This document shows positions 57,475 through 64,000 of a stretch of 64,000 nt of DNA, in pieces. The stretch spans positions 1 through 64,000 of the forward strand of contig NZ_JADKYP010000031.1 of NCBI RefSeq assembly GCF_015354405.1. The letters are read 5' to 3'. Below the pieces are notes generated by a model that worked only from the letters and a program-made list of their open reading frames with translations, was not told where the DNA came from and made no database searches. Position numbers and translations under genes: made by a program. Source of the DNA: Nocardia sp. BSTN01 (GTDB taxonomy: Bacteria > Actinomycetota > Actinomycetes > Mycobacteriales > Mycobacteriaceae). Within the stretch, counting starts at the first letter, position 1; every line of letters begins with the position of its first letter.

Positions 57475-57876
57475 TCACAACACCGCCTGGGTCTGGGTGA
57501 CCTTGCCGACGAGTTTGCCGGCGTCGTCGTGGATTTCGGTTTCCACCACGATGAAACTGCGCCCCGCGTGCAGCGGCGTCGACGAGGCCACCGCGTAACC
57601 GGACCGTACCGCCCGCAGGAAGTTCGTCTTCGACTCCACGGTCGTGGTGCCCTGTTTGCCCTCCGGCAGATTCAGGTACGCGCATACCGCGCCGGTGGCG
57701 TCGGCCAGCGACATCAGCACCCCGCCGTGCAGGACACCGCCGAGCGTGCACAGGCTCTCGTCCCAGGCGAGCCGGCTGCGCACCAGCTTCGGCCCGTGCT
57801 CGAGCACCTCGACGCCCAGTTTCTCGGTGAACGGCATGGTGCTGTGGAACAGCCGGGTTCCTTCGGTATCGATCAT
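57475..57876 (-). CDS. PaaI-type hotdog thioesterase
   Basis: The 133-residue hotdog-fold protein has the family motif LGGVLHGGVLMSLADATGAVCAYL at about 45-70, with the usual glycines and the Asp used in catalysis. It should cleave acyl- or aroyl-CoA. Its ATG overlaps the MMPL stop by four bases, making it the last gene of the leftward lipid cluster, where it could release or edit acyl chains. A convergent quinone-reductase gene ends 15 bp away. Confidence 0.85.
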   Translation of the reverse strand: MIDTEGTRLFHSTMPFTEKLGVEVLEHGPKLVRSRLAWDESLCTLGGVLHGGVLMSLADATGAVCAYLNLPEGKQGTTTVESKTNFLRAVRSGYAVASSTPLHAGRSFIVVETEIHDDAGKLVGKVTQTQAVL

Positions 57877-60017
57877 GATGTCGAGCTTGCCCGGACGCGT
57901 GCGCGAGGTCCATTACCTTCGGGGTAACGATCGCGGGCGGGGCGCATCGGCCACCAGTTCAGCGGGCCCATCAATCGCACCAGCGCCGGCACCAGCAGCA
58001 TTCGCACCAGCGTGGCGTCGATGATCAGCGCCAGGATCATGCCGAGGCCGAGGAATCGCATCGGGGTCAGCGGGGACAGCGTGAAGGCGCCGGTGATGAA
58101 CACCAGAAGCGTTGCGGCCGAGGTGATCACGCGGGCGGTGCGGACCGTGCCGGTGCGGATCGCGGACACGGTGTCGCAACCGGCGTGGCGGGCCTCGACC
58201 ATGCGCGAGAGCAGGAAGACCTCGTAGTCGGTGGAGAGCCCGAAGACGACGGCGATGATCAGCACCATCATCCCCGCCGAGAGCGGTCCCACGCTCACGT
58301 GCAGCAGATCGGCCAGATTGCCCCGGCAGAAGATCCAGGTCAGGATGCCGAAGGTCGCCGCGAGGCTGAGGAAGGCCAGCAGTACCGCCTTGACCGGCAG
58401 CACCGCCGAGCGGAACGCCGCGCCGAGCAGGATCAGCGTGGCGAGCACCATCACCGCGATCATCAGCGGCATCCGGGAGGTGATGGCCGCGACGCTGTCC
58501 ACGGTGGCCGCGGTGTCGCCCCCGACCTGGATCTTCACACCATCGGGTGGGTCGAATTCCCGTATGCGCGTCACGGTTTCGGCAGCGCCGGGGGAGCGGT
58601 CGGGGTCGTCCAGCGCCGCGTGCAGTACGACCGCGTCGTCCACCGTGGCGAGTCGCTGCACGTCGTGCACACCCGGGATCGTGCCGAGCGCGCGGATCGC
58701 GGCGGCGGTGGGCCGGGAGTCGGGTGGTGCGCCGTCACCGCGCAGCAGAACCGTCGCGCCGCTGCCGGCCTCCGGGAAACGGGTGGCGAGTTCGTCGACG
58801 CCCGCGCGCACGGCATTGCCCGCCGGAAGCGCCGTGTGGTCGACATCGCCGAGCCGGACGCCCAGCACCGGTGTGGCCAGCACGAGCAGCAGCCCGCCTA
58901 CGGTGACGGCCACGAGACCGGGCCGGCGCACCACCGCGTCGACCACCCGGCCCCACCATCGCTCGGCGCGCCGCTGTCCGCGGTCGAAGGCGTCGCGGCG
59001 CCAACTCCAGGCGCCGACGCGGTGACCGAGCAGCGCGAGCGCGGCCGGCAGGACGGTCAGCGACAGCCCCGCGGCCAGCAGCACCGCCGCGATGGCCCCG
59101 AAGCCCAGCGACCGCAAAACGGCCTGCGGGAAGACGAGCGTTCCGGCGAAGGCGCAGGCCAGCAGCAGCGCAGAGAATCCGACGGTGCGACCGGCGGTGG
59201 CCAGGGTGCGGGTCACCGCCTCGGAGACCGCGGCCCCCGCGGCGAGTTCCTCCCGGAATCGGGTGACCACGAACAACCCGTAGTCGATGGCCAGGCCCAG
59301 CCCCAGCAGCGAGGCCACGTTCACGGCGAACACACTCACCTCGGTGGCATGTGCGATCGTTCCGACCGCACCCAGTGAGCCCACGACGGCGAGCACACCC
59401 ACCAGCAGCGGCAGGCCGGCGGCGACCACCCCGCCGAATACCAGCACCAGAATCGCCGCGGTGATCGGCAGCGAGATGGATTCGGCGAGAACCAGATCGT
59501 GCCGGGACTGGCGGTCGATCTCGTCGGCGAGTGCGCTGTAGCCGGTGAAGCGCACCGAGACGCCGGGAACGGTCAGCGCCGCGGCGATGTCGTGGTAGGC
59601 GGCGATGCGCTGATTGTCGTCGCCGGCGGCGAACACCACGGCCAGCCCCTGCCGGCCGTCCGCCGACCGCAGGAAGCCCTGGCGCGGTGGGGCGTTGTTC
59701 CAATAGGTCTGCACCGGCTGGGCCAGCAGTGCCGGATCGATGTGGTCCACCGCCTGCTGGACGCGCGGGCCGAGTGCGGTGAGGTCCTGTCCGTCGGGCG
59801 CGGTGTAGATCGCGATCACATCGGGGTTCTGCCGGCCCAGATGCGCGGTGACCACCCGGTCGACGAGCGCGGATTCGCTGCCCGGATCGGCGAATCCGGC
59901 CGCGCTCACTCGCTGCTGGACGTCGGCGCCGAACAGTCCGCATACGATCGCGACACCGATGGCCGCCAGTAGTACCAGTGTCGGGCGGGTACCGACGAGC
60001 CGCGCCCAGCGTGTCAT
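57873..60017 (-). CDS. MMPL-family lipid transporter
   Basis: The 714-residue RND/MMPL protein has two repeated units, each with one helix, a periplasmic domain and five helices. Conserved lines are LGLGLAIDYGLFVVTRFREEL (helix 4, with the proton-relay Asp-Tyr pair) and VVFGLSTDYEVFLLSRMVEARHAG (helix 10). These exporters move complex lipids to the cell envelope in mycolic-acid bacteria. ATG 60017 overlaps the acyltransferase stop. Its place in the operon suggests that it exports the product of the enzymes encoded upstream. Confidence 0.92.
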   Translation of the reverse strand: MTRWARLVGTRPTLVLLAAIGVAIVCGLFGADVQQRVSAAGFADPGSESALVDRVVTAHLGRQNPDVIAIYTAPDGQDLTALGPRVQQAVDHIDPALLAQPVQTYWNNAPPRQGFLRSADGRQGLAVVFAAGDDNQRIAAYHDIAAALTVPGVSVRFTGYSALADEIDRQSRHDLVLAESISLPITAAILVLVFGGVVAAGLPLLVGVLAVVGSLGAVGTIAHATEVSVFAVNVASLLGLGLAIDYGLFVVTRFREELAAGAAVSEAVTRTLATAGRTVGFSALLLACAFAGTLVFPQAVLRSLGFGAIAAVLLAAGLSLTVLPAALALLGHRVGAWSWRRDAFDRGQRRAERWWGRVVDAVVRRPGLVAVTVGGLLLVLATPVLGVRLGDVDHTALPAGNAVRAGVDELATRFPEAGSGATVLLRGDGAPPDSRPTAAAIRALGTIPGVHDVQRLATVDDAVVLHAALDDPDRSPGAAETVTRIREFDPPDGVKIQVGGDTAATVDSVAAITSRMPLMIAVMVLATLILLGAAFRSAVLPVKAVLLAFLSLAATFGILTWIFCRGNLADLLHVSVGPLSAGMMVLIIAVVFGLSTDYEVFLLSRMVEARHAGCDTVSAIRTGTVRTARVITSAATLLVFITGAFTLSPLTPMRFLGLGMILALIIDATLVRMLLVPALVRLMGPLNWWPMRPARDRYPEGNGPRARVRASSTS

Positions 60018-61207
60018 GCGAGTACCGAATCCGGCTGCGGTAGTTCGCTTTCCAAGGTATCCGCGATGCGGTCCAGCAGCGCTTCGAGCCGATCCTCGAT
60101 ACCGTGGCCGTTGCGCGCGGAGACCGTCAGCTCGGTGCGGCCGCCGGCCTCGACCATCGCGAACAGCAGCGGCATCGCGACGCTGTGCTGCGGCAGCACC
60201 CGCACCGACGTGGGCGACCAGCCGGGCACCGCCAGTTCGCCGAGATCGAAGCGGCCCATGTGCGAGACCGTCGCCGAGGCGAGGTTGCGTCCGAAGCGGG
60301 CGCCGAGCGCGTTGGTGGTGCGCAGAATGATGCGGCCGACTGCATGTGGAGCGTTGGCGATCGCGCTGGCGGCCAGCTGGTTGAGTTCCGTGCGTTCCCG
60401 CAGACCCGCGCGCATGTGTTCGCGCACCTGCCGCCAATCCTGGCCGGGACGGATGTCGAGGAACAGCGGCAACGCCAGATTCGCCGTCGACCGCAGCTGT
60501 GGGTCGTGGCGGCGCAGATCGACCGGCACCATGATCCGCTGCGTAGTGCCCGCGGCATCGGCCAGCAGTGCCGACACCCGCGCCACCGCACCGGGACCGG
60601 TGGCCGCGATACTGCGGTGCCGCAGCAGATGCCGGGGGCTGCCCACCTCCTGACGGCCGTGGCCGACCGCCGCGCGGAAGCGGGGAATCATCGCGGTGGG
60701 ACGTCCGGGTGCGCCGAGGCGCCGCACCAGTTCCCGGTCGGCGACCGGGTCGCGAAGTTCCTCCGGCTGTTCACCGCGTAGCGCGGCGAGGACGTTGCGG
60801 GTCCACAGCACCATGCCCATCCCGTCCATGACGCCGTGGAACACCCGGAAGATCACGGTGACCGGGTCGCCGGTCAGCAGCAGCACCTCACAGGTGGTCT
60901 CCGGGGTCGGGCCGATCGCCGACGCGAGGACCGGATCCGCCTCGAGGCGGGCGTAGTTCACGACGTGACCGGGAAGCTCGCGCACGGCGGGCGGCACGCC
61001 GGTGTCCACCCAGTATGTGCCCTCGCGCCGCAGCCGCGCGCCCGGGCAGGCGGCGGCCGCGACCGCGACAGCCCGGCGCAACCGCTCCGCGTCGAGGGTT
61101 CCGGTTCCCGGAATCGCCAGTTGCATCAGAAACGGCGGCGCCATATCCCGCATGGGAAAATACATGCGCTCGGTGGGCGAGATCCGCCGCCGGAAGACGG
61201 TACTCAT
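60014..61207 (-). CDS. Condensation-type acyltransferase (PapA/WS-DGAT like)
   Basis: The 397-residue protein has a chloramphenicol-acetyltransferase-like fold. FHGVMDGMGM (near residue 124) supplies the His-x3-Asp of the HHxxxDG motif used by PapA, WS/DGAT and NRPS condensation domains, though the first His is Phe. STANLALPLFLDI and a late RFDLGELAVPGW match the second half. It would esterify a hydroxyl group with an acyl-CoA. AGGAG precedes ATG 61207. It lies between the OleD-like and MMPL genes and is coupled to the latter. Confidence 0.75.
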   Translation of the reverse strand: MSTVFRRRISPTERMYFPMRDMAPPFLMQLAIPGTGTLDAERLRRAVAVAAAACPGARLRREGTYWVDTGVPPAVRELPGHVVNYARLEADPVLASAIGPTPETTCEVLLLTGDPVTVIFRVFHGVMDGMGMVLWTRNVLAALRGEQPEELRDPVADRELVRRLGAPGRPTAMIPRFRAAVGHGRQEVGSPRHLLRHRSIAATGPGAVARVSALLADAAGTTQRIMVPVDLRRHDPQLRSTANLALPLFLDIRPGQDWRQVREHMRAGLRERTELNQLAASAIANAPHAVGRIILRTTNALGARFGRNLASATVSHMGRFDLGELAVPGWSPTSVRVLPQHSVAMPLLFAMVEAGGRTELTVSARNGHGIEDRLEALLDRIADTLESELPQPDSVLA

Positions 61208-61227
61208 GATCGGCTCCTGACTGTGCG

Positions 61228-62268
61228 TTACCGCAGATCGCGGGTGAGTTGCTCGATGCCGCCCTCGGATTCGAGCCACGACAGGAACCCGGCCAGGCCC
61301 TGTTCGCGGTCGACGATCGGCGCGTAACCGAAATCCCGTGCCGCCGCGCCGGTGTCGTAGGTCGCGGTGCGGGTCAGCAACGCGACCACATAGCGCGACA
61401 GCGGTGGCGACCAGCGCCGCGCGATCGCCGGTACGCGCCAGACGGTTTCGAGCACCGAGACGGCGACCGCCAGCACCCGCGGATCGGGCCGCCGGCTGGG
61501 CGCCGGGTAGCCGAGCCCGCACGCCACCTCGGCGAGGAAGGCCCACACGTCGGTCTGCTCCGCGTCGGCGACGAAATAGGCCTTGCCACCGACCCGGTCG
61601 GTGCCGGCGGCGCCCAGGCAGGCGTGCACGATGTTGTCGACATGGCACAGCGACGCCCGGACCGAGCGGCCGAACGACAGATCGGGCAGGCGCCCCTGCG
61701 CGGTCCGTCCCAGCAGGCGCACGATCGGCCCGGAGCGGTCGCCGGCTCCCCAGATCGCGCGCGGCCGCAGCGCGCAGGTGGTGAAACCCGCGGTGTCGGC
61801 GGCCAAGACGGCGCGCTCGGCGGCGGCCTTGGTCTCGGAGTAGAAGTTCAGATAGTGGCGCGGATACGGCACCGATTCGTCGATGTCGATCTGATCGCCG
61901 CCGTCGCGATCCATCAGCGCGCTCGGACTCGAGATGAACACGAAACGCGTCGCTCCCGCGGCGCGGGCCGCGCGCAGCAGGACTTCGGTGGCGCGCAGGT
62001 TCTCGGCGCGAAACTGCGCGCGGGTGCCGCGCTCGTCGACGCGGGCGGCGCTGTGGAACACGACATCGACTCCGGCGCAGGCACTTTCGAGCGAGCTTTC
62101 ATCGGTGAGGTCGCCGAAGGCGACCCGCACACCGTCGAGATCGGGCAGATCACCGAGGTTGCTGGTGCGCCGCGCGAGCACGGTCACCTCGTGGCCGCCC
62201 TCGCGTACCAGGCGGCGGACCAGCGCGCCGCCGAGAAATCCGGATGCGCCCGTGACGAGCGCCTTCAC
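61228..62268 (-). CDS. OleD-like NAD(P)-dependent beta-ketoacyl reductase (3-beta-HSD family)
   Basis: The 346-residue extended SDR has the Rossmann loop TGASGFLGG (residues 7-15) and catalytic YSETK. RPRAIWGAGDRSGPIVRLL and AYFVADAEQTDVWAFL are blocks shared by sterol 3-beta-dehydrogenases and OleD. In olefin and beta-lactone pathways OleD reduces 2-alkyl-3-ketoacids to 3-hydroxyacids, which OleC then activates. Presence next to an OleC-like gene favours that role over sterol oxidation. Its ATG overlaps the preceding gene's stop. Confidence 0.8.
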   Translation of the reverse strand: MKALVTGASGFLGGALVRRLVREGGHEVTVLARRTSNLGDLPDLDGVRVAFGDLTDESSLESACAGVDVVFHSAARVDERGTRAQFRAENLRATEVLLRAARAAGATRFVFISSPSALMDRDGGDQIDIDESVPYPRHYLNFYSETKAAAERAVLAADTAGFTTCALRPRAIWGAGDRSGPIVRLLGRTAQGRLPDLSFGRSVRASLCHVDNIVHACLGAAGTDRVGGKAYFVADAEQTDVWAFLAEVACGLGYPAPSRRPDPRVLAVAVSVLETVWRVPAIARRWSPPLSRYVVALLTRTATYDTGAAARDFGYAPIVDREQGLAGFLSWLESEGGIEQLTRDLR

Positions 62269-62552
62269 CGTTGCTTCTCCTCGAAAGACGCCGTGCTACC
62301 GGCTGTTTCGGTACGCCACCAGGTGAGACCGAACAGCTGCGTCATGACGGCGGTGTACAGGCGGGACCGGCCGCTGCCTCGTGCGGCGCGCAACGCGACC
62401 GGAATCTGGGCGGCGTGCACACCGATGCTGAGCATCGCGTCGATCCACCACAGGGCTCGCAGCCAGCGGCGGCCGGAGTGCCGGATTGCCGGACCGGCCA
62501 GCAGAAACAACCAACCGGCAATCGGAATACTGCGTAGTGCGACAACTTTCAC
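62265..62552 (-). CDS. Small membrane-associated protein of the lipid cluster
   Basis: The 95-residue protein has two hydrophobic segments (about residues 8-20 and 30-50), several tryptophans (AGWLFLLAGPAIRHSGRRWLRALWWIDAML) and an amphipathic C-terminal part. It overlaps the OleC-like stop (GTGA) and the OleD-like start (ATGA), so it is translated in step with both enzymes. I do not recognise the family. It may hold the soluble enzymes at the membrane, where lipid substrates and the MMPL exporter are. Confidence 0.6.
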   Translation of the reverse strand: MKVVALRSIPIAGWLFLLAGPAIRHSGRRWLRALWWIDAMLSIGVHAAQIPVALRAARGSGRSRLYTAVMTQLFGLTWWRTETAGSTASFEEKQR

Positions 62553-64000
62553 CGTCGCACCGCCTTCGCGGTCTGCCGGGCCGCCCATACCGCGAGCTGT
62601 TCGCGCCCGATCTTGGCGTTGTGCCGGATGTCGACCGGGAAGTTCGGATGGAACAGGAACTCCGAGATCTTCGTGGTGAGCTCGAATTCCGCGCCACGCG
62701 CACGCAGCGCGGCGGTCACGTCGTCACGATCGGCGCCCGCGCCCAGTTCCACACACAGCACGGGGCGCTGGGCTCCGGCCGGGCCCACCCCGACCAGCGC
62801 CGTGCGCGCCACACCGGCGACGGCGTTGAAGATCTGTTCGACCTGGACCGTGAACATCGGCCCGTCGGCGGTGCGTACCCGCTGAGATTTGCGCCCGCAG
62901 AACCAGATTCGTCCCTGATCGTCGATCCGTGCCAGGTCGCCGGTGCGATGCCAGACGGTCTCGCCGTCGATGATCTTGCCCGTCGCGTTCGCCGCGGCGG
63001 GCCAGTAATAGCGGGTGCTCACATTCGGCCCCGCCACCACCAGTTCGCCGATGCCGCCGGTGGTCGCCACGTCGTTCTCCCGGGCCTGGGCGTCCGCCCA
63101 GGTAGGCAGCGGGTCGTCGGTGATCGCCACGACGCGCGCCCGCACCCGGTCGGCGGGGCGGCCGATGCAGGTGCCCGCGCCGGCGCGGGCGCGTTCGGAC
63201 AGGCCGTCCAGCAGTTCACGCGATTCGATCGTCGACATCGGCAGCGCCTCGGTGGACCCGTATCCGGCGTAGACCAGCACATCCTCGTCGAGCACCGCGC
63301 GCAGGCCGGCGATACACCAGTCCGGGACCGGTGCGCCCCCGGAGTAGATACTGCGCAGCGTCGGTAGCCGGGTGCCGGTCTGTTCCAGGTGGCGCAGCAG
63401 CGGGATGAGCGCCGCGGGAGAGGCGAACATGGTGCGTACCCCGAATCTGCCGATGGCGTCGGCCACGTGCGCCGGATCGGTCGAACCCACCTTGCTGGGG
63501 ATCAGCGGCGGCAGGACGCACTGGGAGCCGAGCAGCAGATCCAGGATGCCGACCAGCGGCAGCGTGATCAGCGAGGTCTGCGGCGGTACGTGGCCGCGCG
63601 CGGCGTGGACCTGCTCGACCATGGCCGACAGATTGCCGTGGGTCATCTCCACGGCCTTGGCGGGTCCGGTGCTCCCGGTGGTGAAGGCGATCATCAGCGG
63701 GTCGTCGTCGGGCGCCGGAGTGCGCTCCGGCGCCGTGCCGGACGGGCGGCGGCCCCAGCTGTCGAAGGTCGCTCCGCCCCAGAACCAGCGCCGCCCGACC
63801 GTGACCGCGACCCGCACCCCGCGGAAGTAGCGGCGGAACAGCACTCGCGCCGCATGCGCCTGCGGAATGCCGATGAACGCCTCGGCGTCGGCCGCCCGCA
63901 GGCACCGCAGCATCCGGCGCAGGCCCATGCCCGGATCGATGACCACCGGCACGGCACCGATCTTCAACAGGCCCAGCATGATCGCGTACAGCTCCGGCCC
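62549..64000 (-). CDS. OleC-like adenylate-forming enzyme, 5' end outside the window
   Basis: At least 483 residues of an AMP-forming enzyme are visible. GPELYAIMLGLLKIGAVPVVIDPGMGLRRML opens it, followed by the P-loop FTTGSTGPAKAVEMTHG, then YGSTEALPM, TGDLARIDDQGRIWFCGRKSQRV, and the A10 lysine in DIRHNAKIGREQLAVWA. The VDPGMG and HNAKIxREqLAVWA lines are those of OleC, which converts 3-hydroxyacids to beta-lactones. The N-terminal 60-100 residues, and any fused OleB domain as in some actinobacteria, lie beyond 64000. Fatty acyl-AMP ligase activity is the alternative. Confidence 0.8.
   Translation of the reverse strand, partial: GPELYAIMLGLLKIGAVPVVIDPGMGLRRMLRCLRAADAEAFIGIPQAHAARVLFRRYFRGVRVAVTVGRRWFWGGATFDSWGRRPSGTAPERTPAPDDDPLMIAFTTGSTGPAKAVEMTHGNLSAMVEQVHAARGHVPPQTSLITLPLVGILDLLLGSQCVLPPLIPSKVGSTDPAHVADAIGRFGVRTMFASPAALIPLLRHLEQTGTRLPTLRSIYSGGAPVPDWCIAGLRAVLDEDVLVYAGYGSTEALPMSTIESRELLDGLSERARAGAGTCIGRPADRVRARVVAITDDPLPTWADAQARENDVATTGGIGELVVAGPNVSTRYYWPAAANATGKIIDGETVWHRTGDLARIDDQGRIWFCGRKSQRVRTADGPMFTVQVEQIFNAVAGVARTALVGVGPAGAQRPVLCVELGAGADRDDVTAALRARGAEFELTTKISEFLFHPNFPVDIRHNAKIGREQLAVWAARQTAKAVRR

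Follow-up and report, generated by a model that had tools for sequence, protein, structure and literature searches.

A probable nocardiolactone operon of Nocardia sp. BSTN01 and its apparent kinship with the lipstatin operon

Gene content of the operon

The window analysed here, a stretch of 64,000 bases, is the start of an 83,175-base contig (NZ_JADKYP010000031.1) of Nocardia sp. BSTN01, and the operon that its edge cuts could therefore be read beyond it. Eight minus-strand genes (66184→57475) encode, in order, a Cys-bearing KAS-III protein, a Cys-less KAS-III protein, an OleC-like enzyme, a small protein of 95 amino acids (aa), an OleD-like reductase, an acyltransferase-like protein (hereafter AT), an MMPL exporter and a hotdog thioesterase (Table 1). 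Judged by sequence, this is a beta-lactone operon of the OleA/C/D type, and an OleB-like gene was not seen among the scanned flanking proteins. It is very probably the nocardiolactone (nlt) locus of a Nocardia nova-complex strain, its product is very probably a fatty beta-lactone, and it is apparently a cut-down relative of the operon for the lipase inhibitor lipstatin.

The five genes that a first-pass annotation of the window had placed in one operon (OleC-like, OleD-like, acyltransferase, MMPL and thioesterase) are all open, in that order, on the minus strand. As to the translational coupling it described, five of the seven junctions overlap and the other two are short gaps, the series in gene order being a 10-nucleotide (nt) gap, three 4-nt overlaps, a 20-nt gap and two 4-nt overlaps. 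Its OleC/OleD pair is present as to type, but the two genes are not adjacent; the 95-aa open reading frame (ORF), absent from that annotation, lies between them and overlaps each by 4 nt. The oleA-type thiolases it proposed to look for past position 64000 are there, as two OleA-type KAS-III proteins (66184→64219), and the opposite case, an ordinary acyl-AMP ligase with no OleA homologue nearby, fails on both counts, since the ligase scores with the OleC family.

Table 1. Genes of the operon, in gene order; arrows run in the direction of transcription.
Feature	Coordinates	Strand	Remarks
Cys-bearing KAS-III (LstA/OleA-like)	66184→65135	minus	349 aa; operon gene 1; beyond window
Cys-less KAS-III (LstB-like)	65124→64219	minus	301 aa; operon gene 2; beyond window
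OleC/NltC-like beta-lactone synthetase	64222→62549	minus	557 aa; first 222 bases past window
95-aa small protein, GTG start	62552→62265	minus	two moderately hydrophobic stretches; homologous to OleC C-terminal tail in L186, L187, L195
OleD-like 2-alkyl-3-oxoalkanoate reductase	62268→61228	minus	346 aa
AT, stand-alone HxxxD acyltransferase-like protein	61207→60014	minus	397 aa; homologous to N-terminal domain of lipstatin-type nonribosomal peptide synthetase (NRPS)-like protein
MMPL exporter, MmpL3 subfamily	60017→57873	minus	714 aa
Hotdog-fold thioesterase	57876→57475	minus	133 aa

The KAS-III pair and the OleC-like and OleD-like enzymes

Related loci were taken from an OleC-based scan of a species-genome collection as the best 80 of 383 confirmed places (75 in Nocardia and 5 in Rhodococcus), a sample that leans to near relatives. 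They were sorted into type 1, with a same-strand KAS-III pair or one interrupted where the contig ends (69 loci), and type 2, with a divergent pair and no AT or MMPL (11 loci: L057, L059, L061, L067, L084, L086, L087, L088, L091, L092 and L097).

The second best PDB match of the Cys-bearing KAS-III is 3row, which we take to be XcOleA, with Cys, His and Asn aligned. In an alignment of 78 loci and the window (79 rows), Cys124 is present in 78 rows, the remaining row being a gap, and His267 and Asn301 in all 79. The Cys column of the Cys-less KAS-III holds Ala (64), Gly (14) or Ser (1), and Glu57 stands in 79 of 79 rows. In one report, LstAB needs its Cys subunit as well as Glu60 of the partner subunit (PMC12141560). 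Glu57 would, by position, be the counterpart of LstB Glu60. Cys, His and Asn in the first protein and Glu without Cys in the second correspond to the division of labour reported for LstA and LstB, and the operon has an LstA/LstB-type pair of a Cys and a Glu subunit.

The OleC-like call of the first-pass annotation was borne out: the protein scores 591 bits with PRK09274, and the two models for olefin beta-lactone synthetases give 505 and 376 bits, against at most 133 bits for any other of the 25 models listed out of 97. Neither olefin model's cut-off is reached (900 and 850 bits; NF045786 gives 505 against 900), and on these scores the protein is an OleC-family relative, not an equivalog of the Xanthomonas enzyme. 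Among the best 80 places, those in N. aobensis, N. cerradoensis and N. kruczakiae are nearest to the window strain (96% OleC identity). The OleD-like protein reaches 204 bits with the OleD model, whose cut-off is 580. In seven loci (L064, L069, L070, L075, L078, L083 and L118) OleC is 594-607 aa long, about 40-50 residues above the others, and the matches split near residue 160, suggesting an insertion at that point.

The acyltransferase-like protein and its fused relatives

AT had been labelled a PapA/WS-like acyltransferase, a label to which the libraries searched lend no support. Searches with the single sequence and with a profile gave no Pfam or NCBIfam match; the Pfam families of canonical NRPS condensation domains and of PapA and WS acyltransferases do not match AT. 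The best PDB match (E 0.065) is not significant, and a profile search gave nothing at E 1 or better. By descent, AT is related to the first domain of a lipstatin-type NRPS-like protein. It is called an acyltransferase from its HxxxD motif and gene context, and would be an HxxxD domain at the condensation position; all 68 rows (67 loci and the window) keep H124 and D128. Against four relatives the ratio of nonsynonymous to synonymous change (Ka/Ks) is 0.11-0.18 for AT, similar to OleD (0.15-0.22) and MMPL (0.11-0.15), so AT does not appear decayed. The window genome has a single AT match, the 397-aa protein without adenylation and carrier domains (A-T), and the operon holds no NRPS with these domains of the LstE kind. 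A second stand-alone AT was seen at L133:6789-9298, 68% identical and 630 kb away from that genome's OleC operon; it overlaps a gene that by eye is cytochrome P450-like.

The gene at the AT position in four Rhodococcus loci (L113, L116, L119 and L120) encodes 994-1010 aa, with AT followed by A-T (hence AT-A-T), and is succeeded by a formyltransferase-like gene and then MMPL. The A-T domains were recognised through Pfam in L113, and the remaining three are 59-67% identical to the A-T part of L113; the best model for the L113 formyltransferase-like gene is a formyltransferase (58 bits). The fifth Rhodococcus locus, L114, stops inside AT at a contig edge. AT-A-T and a formyltransferase-like gene are also found in the family relatives L195, L196, where the latter gene comes first, and L198, which carries MMPL; L194 and L197 duplicate L113 and L120. 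In the class-level relative L186, on an 8.5-Mb contig, the genes read KAS-III, KAS-III, OleC, OleD, AT-A-T, formyltransferase-like, an order that we take to be that of the lipstatin genes; a second class-level relative, L187, is cut by a contig end. The lipstatin operon itself, lstABCDEF of Streptomyces toxytricini, reportedly described by Bai et al. 2014, shares with the window the order KAS-III, KAS-III, OleC, OleD, AT domain, and the Cys and Glu subunits. The window operon differs from it in having no A-T didomain or formyltransferase, in having the OleC tail as a gene of its own and in having an MmpL3-type exporter.

None of the 64 Nocardia type-1 loci gave a formyltransferase (E 1e-8) or A-T (250 bits) match, and the window genome gave no formyltransferase (LstF) match at E 1e-20. 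Among 149 sampled genomes of the genus a formyltransferase occurs in five, always close (about 3.2 kb or less) to a fused AT row that lies off the cluster; two further fused rows have none. A family-wide search of 251 genomes returned 12 non-Nocardia AT matches above 500 bits, all in frames longer than 1,000 aa (the five opened carry A-T), 13 Nocardia matches in frames of at most 725 aa, and two weaker matches (186 and 150 bits), whose frames measure 658 and 637 aa. When 33 AT domains are placed in a tree with L186/L187 as the root, the 20 stand-alone ATs sampled fall into one clade (99) nested among the fused ones, the successive nodes being supported at 100, 90 and 95. A core-protein tree (four proteins; the window, five relatives and 34 of the 80 loci) joins Nocardia type 1 (84) to type 2 (87). 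With the stand-alone ATs nested in the fused ones, and with the core tree, loss is the simplest reading: Nocardia probably lost the A-T part and the formyltransferase. Off-cluster AT-A-T and formyltransferase-like pairs were noted at L129:8521-12359 and L131:4183-7886, in two genomes of the genus whose OleC genes include type-1 and type-2-like ones; the pathway there may be split across the chromosome.

The small ORF has a related history. In the window it and OleC are distinct genes joined by a GTGA overlap, and in L186, L187 and L195 the OleC frame has a C-terminal extension alignable with the 95-aa protein, with common features near HxxQIP and FGxTWW in most rows. The protein is present in 57 of 69 type-1 and 4 of 11 type-2 loci. 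It was not found in L100, L101, L104 and L106-L112 (the neocaledoniensis-salmonicida group), and it can therefore be lost; its Ka/Ks against the four relatives, 0.18-0.38, is looser than that of AT, OleD and MMPL.

The MMPL exporter and the thioesterase

Compared with individual chains, the operon MMPL scores 406 bits with MmpL3, 107 with MmpL5 and 104 with MmpL4, and both Asp-Tyr pairs of MmpL3, presumably its proton relay, align. With the MmpL3 model NF052608 it reaches 473-482 bits, under the cut-off of 1400; this model is not strict, below-cut-off matches occurring also in 6 of 14 control genomes. Three better MmpL3 matches lie elsewhere in the window genome (top 1,037 bits), and the operon protein is 38% identical to the best of the genome's MmpL3 matches (L134). 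It belongs to the same subfamily as the trehalose monomycolate exporter MmpL3 but is shorter, the long C-terminal part being missing, and it groups apart: in a quick tree the Nocardia and Rhodococcus operon MMPLs cluster together beside the three MmpL3-like proteins of the window genome. Its cargo need not, for that reason, be trehalose monomycolate, the form in which MmpL3 ships mycolic acids. Because the relatives with AT-A-T and a formyltransferase also carry MMPL, the older cargo was more likely a lipstatin-like lipid. The thioesterase gene, present in 10 of 69 type-1 loci, has a Ka/Ks of 0-0.14 against the four relatives, tighter than AT, OleD and MMPL.

Distribution in the genus

A stand-alone AT is present in 62 of the 64 Nocardia type-1 loci, both exceptions (L089 and L115) stopping at a contig edge, and an MMPL match in 58, two of them fragments (L041 and L105). 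In the drawn sample of the genus, 102 of the 149 genomes have an AT match. Of the 104 stand-alone-type AT rows, at least 101 have an OleC-family row at a distance of 1,078-1,579 bp, in at least 100 of the 149 genomes; two of the remaining three are on contigs without a listed OleC row and one is a detached copy. For these counts the seven AT rows in frames longer than 1,000 aa were tallied separately, two weak rows were dropped and the second pieces of split matches were excluded. Conversely, 23 of the 124 OleC rows of at least 68% identity among the matches listed have no nearby AT; some are known type-2 loci and two are contig breaks. Three AT-less rows contain one internal stop codon each (G093:C228:58299-59963, G100:C1:128077-129741 and G082:C6:191479-193146) and are possibly decaying copies. 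In L084, a type-2 locus that was opened, a secretory lipase and a LuxR-type regulator adjoin the cluster.

Relation to the nocardiolactone cluster

In the available part of PMC7413640, the nocardiolactone cluster is identified together with 36 homologous clusters, six of them first termed lipstatin-type, and nocardiolactone is described as a fatty acid derivative resembling lipstatin. The available part of PMC7064751 lists S. toxytricini and N. brasiliensis as beta-lactone producers with oleACD clusters lacking oleB. Two N. brasiliensis assemblies contain two and one OleC-family genes (L068, L071 and L080), all in type-1 loci, and the next best OleC homologues there are about 27% identical. 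As these assemblies hold type-1 copies only, nltC belongs, by elimination, to the OleC family of the window. All three loci have the window's order of two KAS-III genes, OleC and OleD and share the 95-aa protein, AT and MMPL; the window operon differs in its extra terminal thioesterase gene. The first-pass annotation had regarded the acyltransferase and MMPL genes as additions unfamiliar from nocardiolactone clusters. They do belong to the operon, but the N. brasiliensis loci lend no support to the view that they set it apart, and AT and MMPL appear to be ordinary neighbours of the nltC family. Given that every N. brasiliensis OleC locus carries both, and that the beta-lactone synthetase of nocardiolactone, reportedly characterised by Robinson et al. 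2020, came from that species, the operon is very probably the nocardiolactone locus: it unites two KAS-III proteins, a beta-lactone synthetase and an OleD reductase in one operon and is orthologous to the N. brasiliensis type-1 cluster, the published copy being assigned indirectly. The 11 type-2 loci were also considered as the true nlt cluster and rejected, since neither N. brasiliensis assembly shows them.

Proposed pathway and alternative readings

The observed gene content, order and conservation, the conserved motif residues and the ancestry of AT and of the small protein allow a pathway to be sketched, its enzymatic steps following the respective families. The KAS-III pair would join two fatty acyl-CoAs in a head-to-head, non-decarboxylating condensation, the OleD-like enzyme would reduce the 3-keto acid, and the OleC-like enzyme would adenylate the 2-alkyl-3-hydroxy acid and close the beta-lactone. 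The lactone would be retained, no OleB having been seen among the flanking proteins scanned. The 95-aa protein might, at a guess, be a tether that holds the synthetase at the membrane. AT probably acylates a lipid hydroxyl, with a donor other than the lost carrier domain, such as acyl-CoA (donor and acceptor are both guesses), and MMPL would move the product, whose identity is likewise guessed, to the envelope.

The locus is likely to be an nlt-type operon of a Nocardia nova-complex strain that descended from a lipstatin-type operon, minus A-T and formyltransferase, and that has an MmpL3-type exporter. Several results weigh against this. The AT profile shows no link to a canonical condensation-domain pair (probability 0.3%), about the value of a negative control in which hhalign compared AT with the KAS-III-B profile (0.2%). 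The formyltransferase-like genes tested score under the curated cut-offs, and L186 is equated with a lipstatin operon by its gene order. Support in the core-protein tree is moderate (84-87) and is 48 on the Rhodococcus side. No MMPL was found within 19.5 kb in L195 and L196, or in the fetched flank of four Nocardia type-1 loci (L100, L101, L109 and L110). The nltC copy among the N. brasiliensis loci was assigned by elimination, and nocardiolactone is a simple dialkyl beta-lactone not known to carry an ester, so that no task is known for AT.

The conservation of AT means that the true end product may differ from the described lactone, and, with the HxxxD motif kept in AT, an esterified product is plausible. 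Tentatively, and at somewhat under even chances, it is proposed that the end product is not plain nocardiolactone: a carrier-independent AT would esterify the beta-lactone lipid or open it onto a carrier, and the dedicated MmpL3 paralogue would bring a new envelope lipid to the surface in many Nocardia. It is rather unlikely, at perhaps one chance in four, that nocardiolactone itself is the end product, with AT, a remnant of the NRPS-like protein, serving as a chaperone or scaffold and MMPL exporting the free lactone. The same genes in N. brasiliensis speak for this, as do the A-T and formyltransferase missing from the Nocardia type-1 loci (the latter also from the window genome) and the lipstatin-like fatty acid derivative of the available part of PMC7413640; the invariant H and D of the HxxxD motif and the low Ka/Ks of AT argue for catalysis.

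Two further readings are improbable. In one, the beta-lactone is an activated, mycolate-like 2-alkyl-3-hydroxy acyl group; AT opens it onto a carrier, either a sugar or glycerol, and MMPL exports the ester as MmpL3 exports trehalose monomycolate. The proximity of MMPL to MmpL3 over MmpL5 and MmpL4, the aligned Asp-Tyr pairs and the established chemistry by which the OleA/OleD product class is that of mycolic acids agree with it, but we know of no enzyme of the AT kind that takes a beta-lactone as donor, the MMPLs of the operons and the MmpL3-like proteins of the same genome fall into separate groups, and the AT-A-T and formyltransferase relatives carry MMPL with a cargo that is likely lipstatin-like. 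In the other, AT was recruited independently as a PapA/WS-type acyltransferase, and the fusion seen in relatives came later, as the single-domain AT in 62 of 62 AT-bearing Nocardia type-1 loci and the short frames of the two weak family relatives might suggest; the nesting of stand-alone ATs within fused ones under the L186/L187 root, the long frames of all 12 strong non-Nocardia matches and the missing PapA/WS family match stand against it. An olefin pathway with OleB elsewhere in the genome is very improbable: OleA, OleC and OleD types are shared with the OleABCD pathway of Xanthomonas and Micrococcus (PMC7064751, in its available part), but two unequal KAS-III subunits replace the one OleA, the closest operons are lipstatin-type, and no OleB-like or other alpha/beta hydrolase was found among the seven flanking proteins scanned, the OleB search not extending to the whole genome. 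These proteins are galactokinase, galactose-1-phosphate uridylyltransferase, a cell-wall amidase and a CobW protein on one side, and a zinc-type dehydrogenase, a TetR regulator and a luciferase-like protein on the other.

If the operon is indeed an nlt-type locus of lipstatin-type descent, two known beta-lactone pathways are linked by descent, which suggests a source for the unannotated acyltransferase and small ORF of Nocardia and predicts a lipstatin-like formyl-aminoacyl beta-lactone in Rhodococcus qingshengii and relatives. The role of nocardiolactone and its exit from the cell become addressable gene by gene. Nocardia includes opportunistic pathogens, and the AT-OleC pair is widespread in the sampled genomes of this genus; beta-lactone natural products inhibit diverse hydrolytic enzymes, as stated in the available part of PMC7413640. 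Compared with the literature surveyed, the kind of cluster is largely known, and the proposed lipstatin-type descent, the origin of AT and of the 95-aa protein and the frequent MmpL3-type partner appear to be new. The survey returned no report of a lipstatin-type operon in Rhodococcus or of AT or MMPL in nlt, weak evidence of absence given that the main nlt and lst operon papers lay outside its coverage.

Further observations

KAS-III-B-like genes were also seen in another genus of the same family (g29), in G373, G270, G219, G234, G181, G259, G309 and G684, with an internal stop in three of the eight. In the four g29 loci opened (L188-L191) the gene stands beside a KAS-III-A-like gene, with no OleC match above 45 bits in 19.5 kb. 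Two family relatives (L192:5047-10425 and L193:4875-10325) each have a frame of about 1,800 aa in which condensation, adenylation and carrier domains are followed by KAS-III-A-like and KAS-III-B-like ones, so that an NRPS module and an LstAB-type pair form one protein; a weakly OleD-like gene (about 30% identity) comes next.

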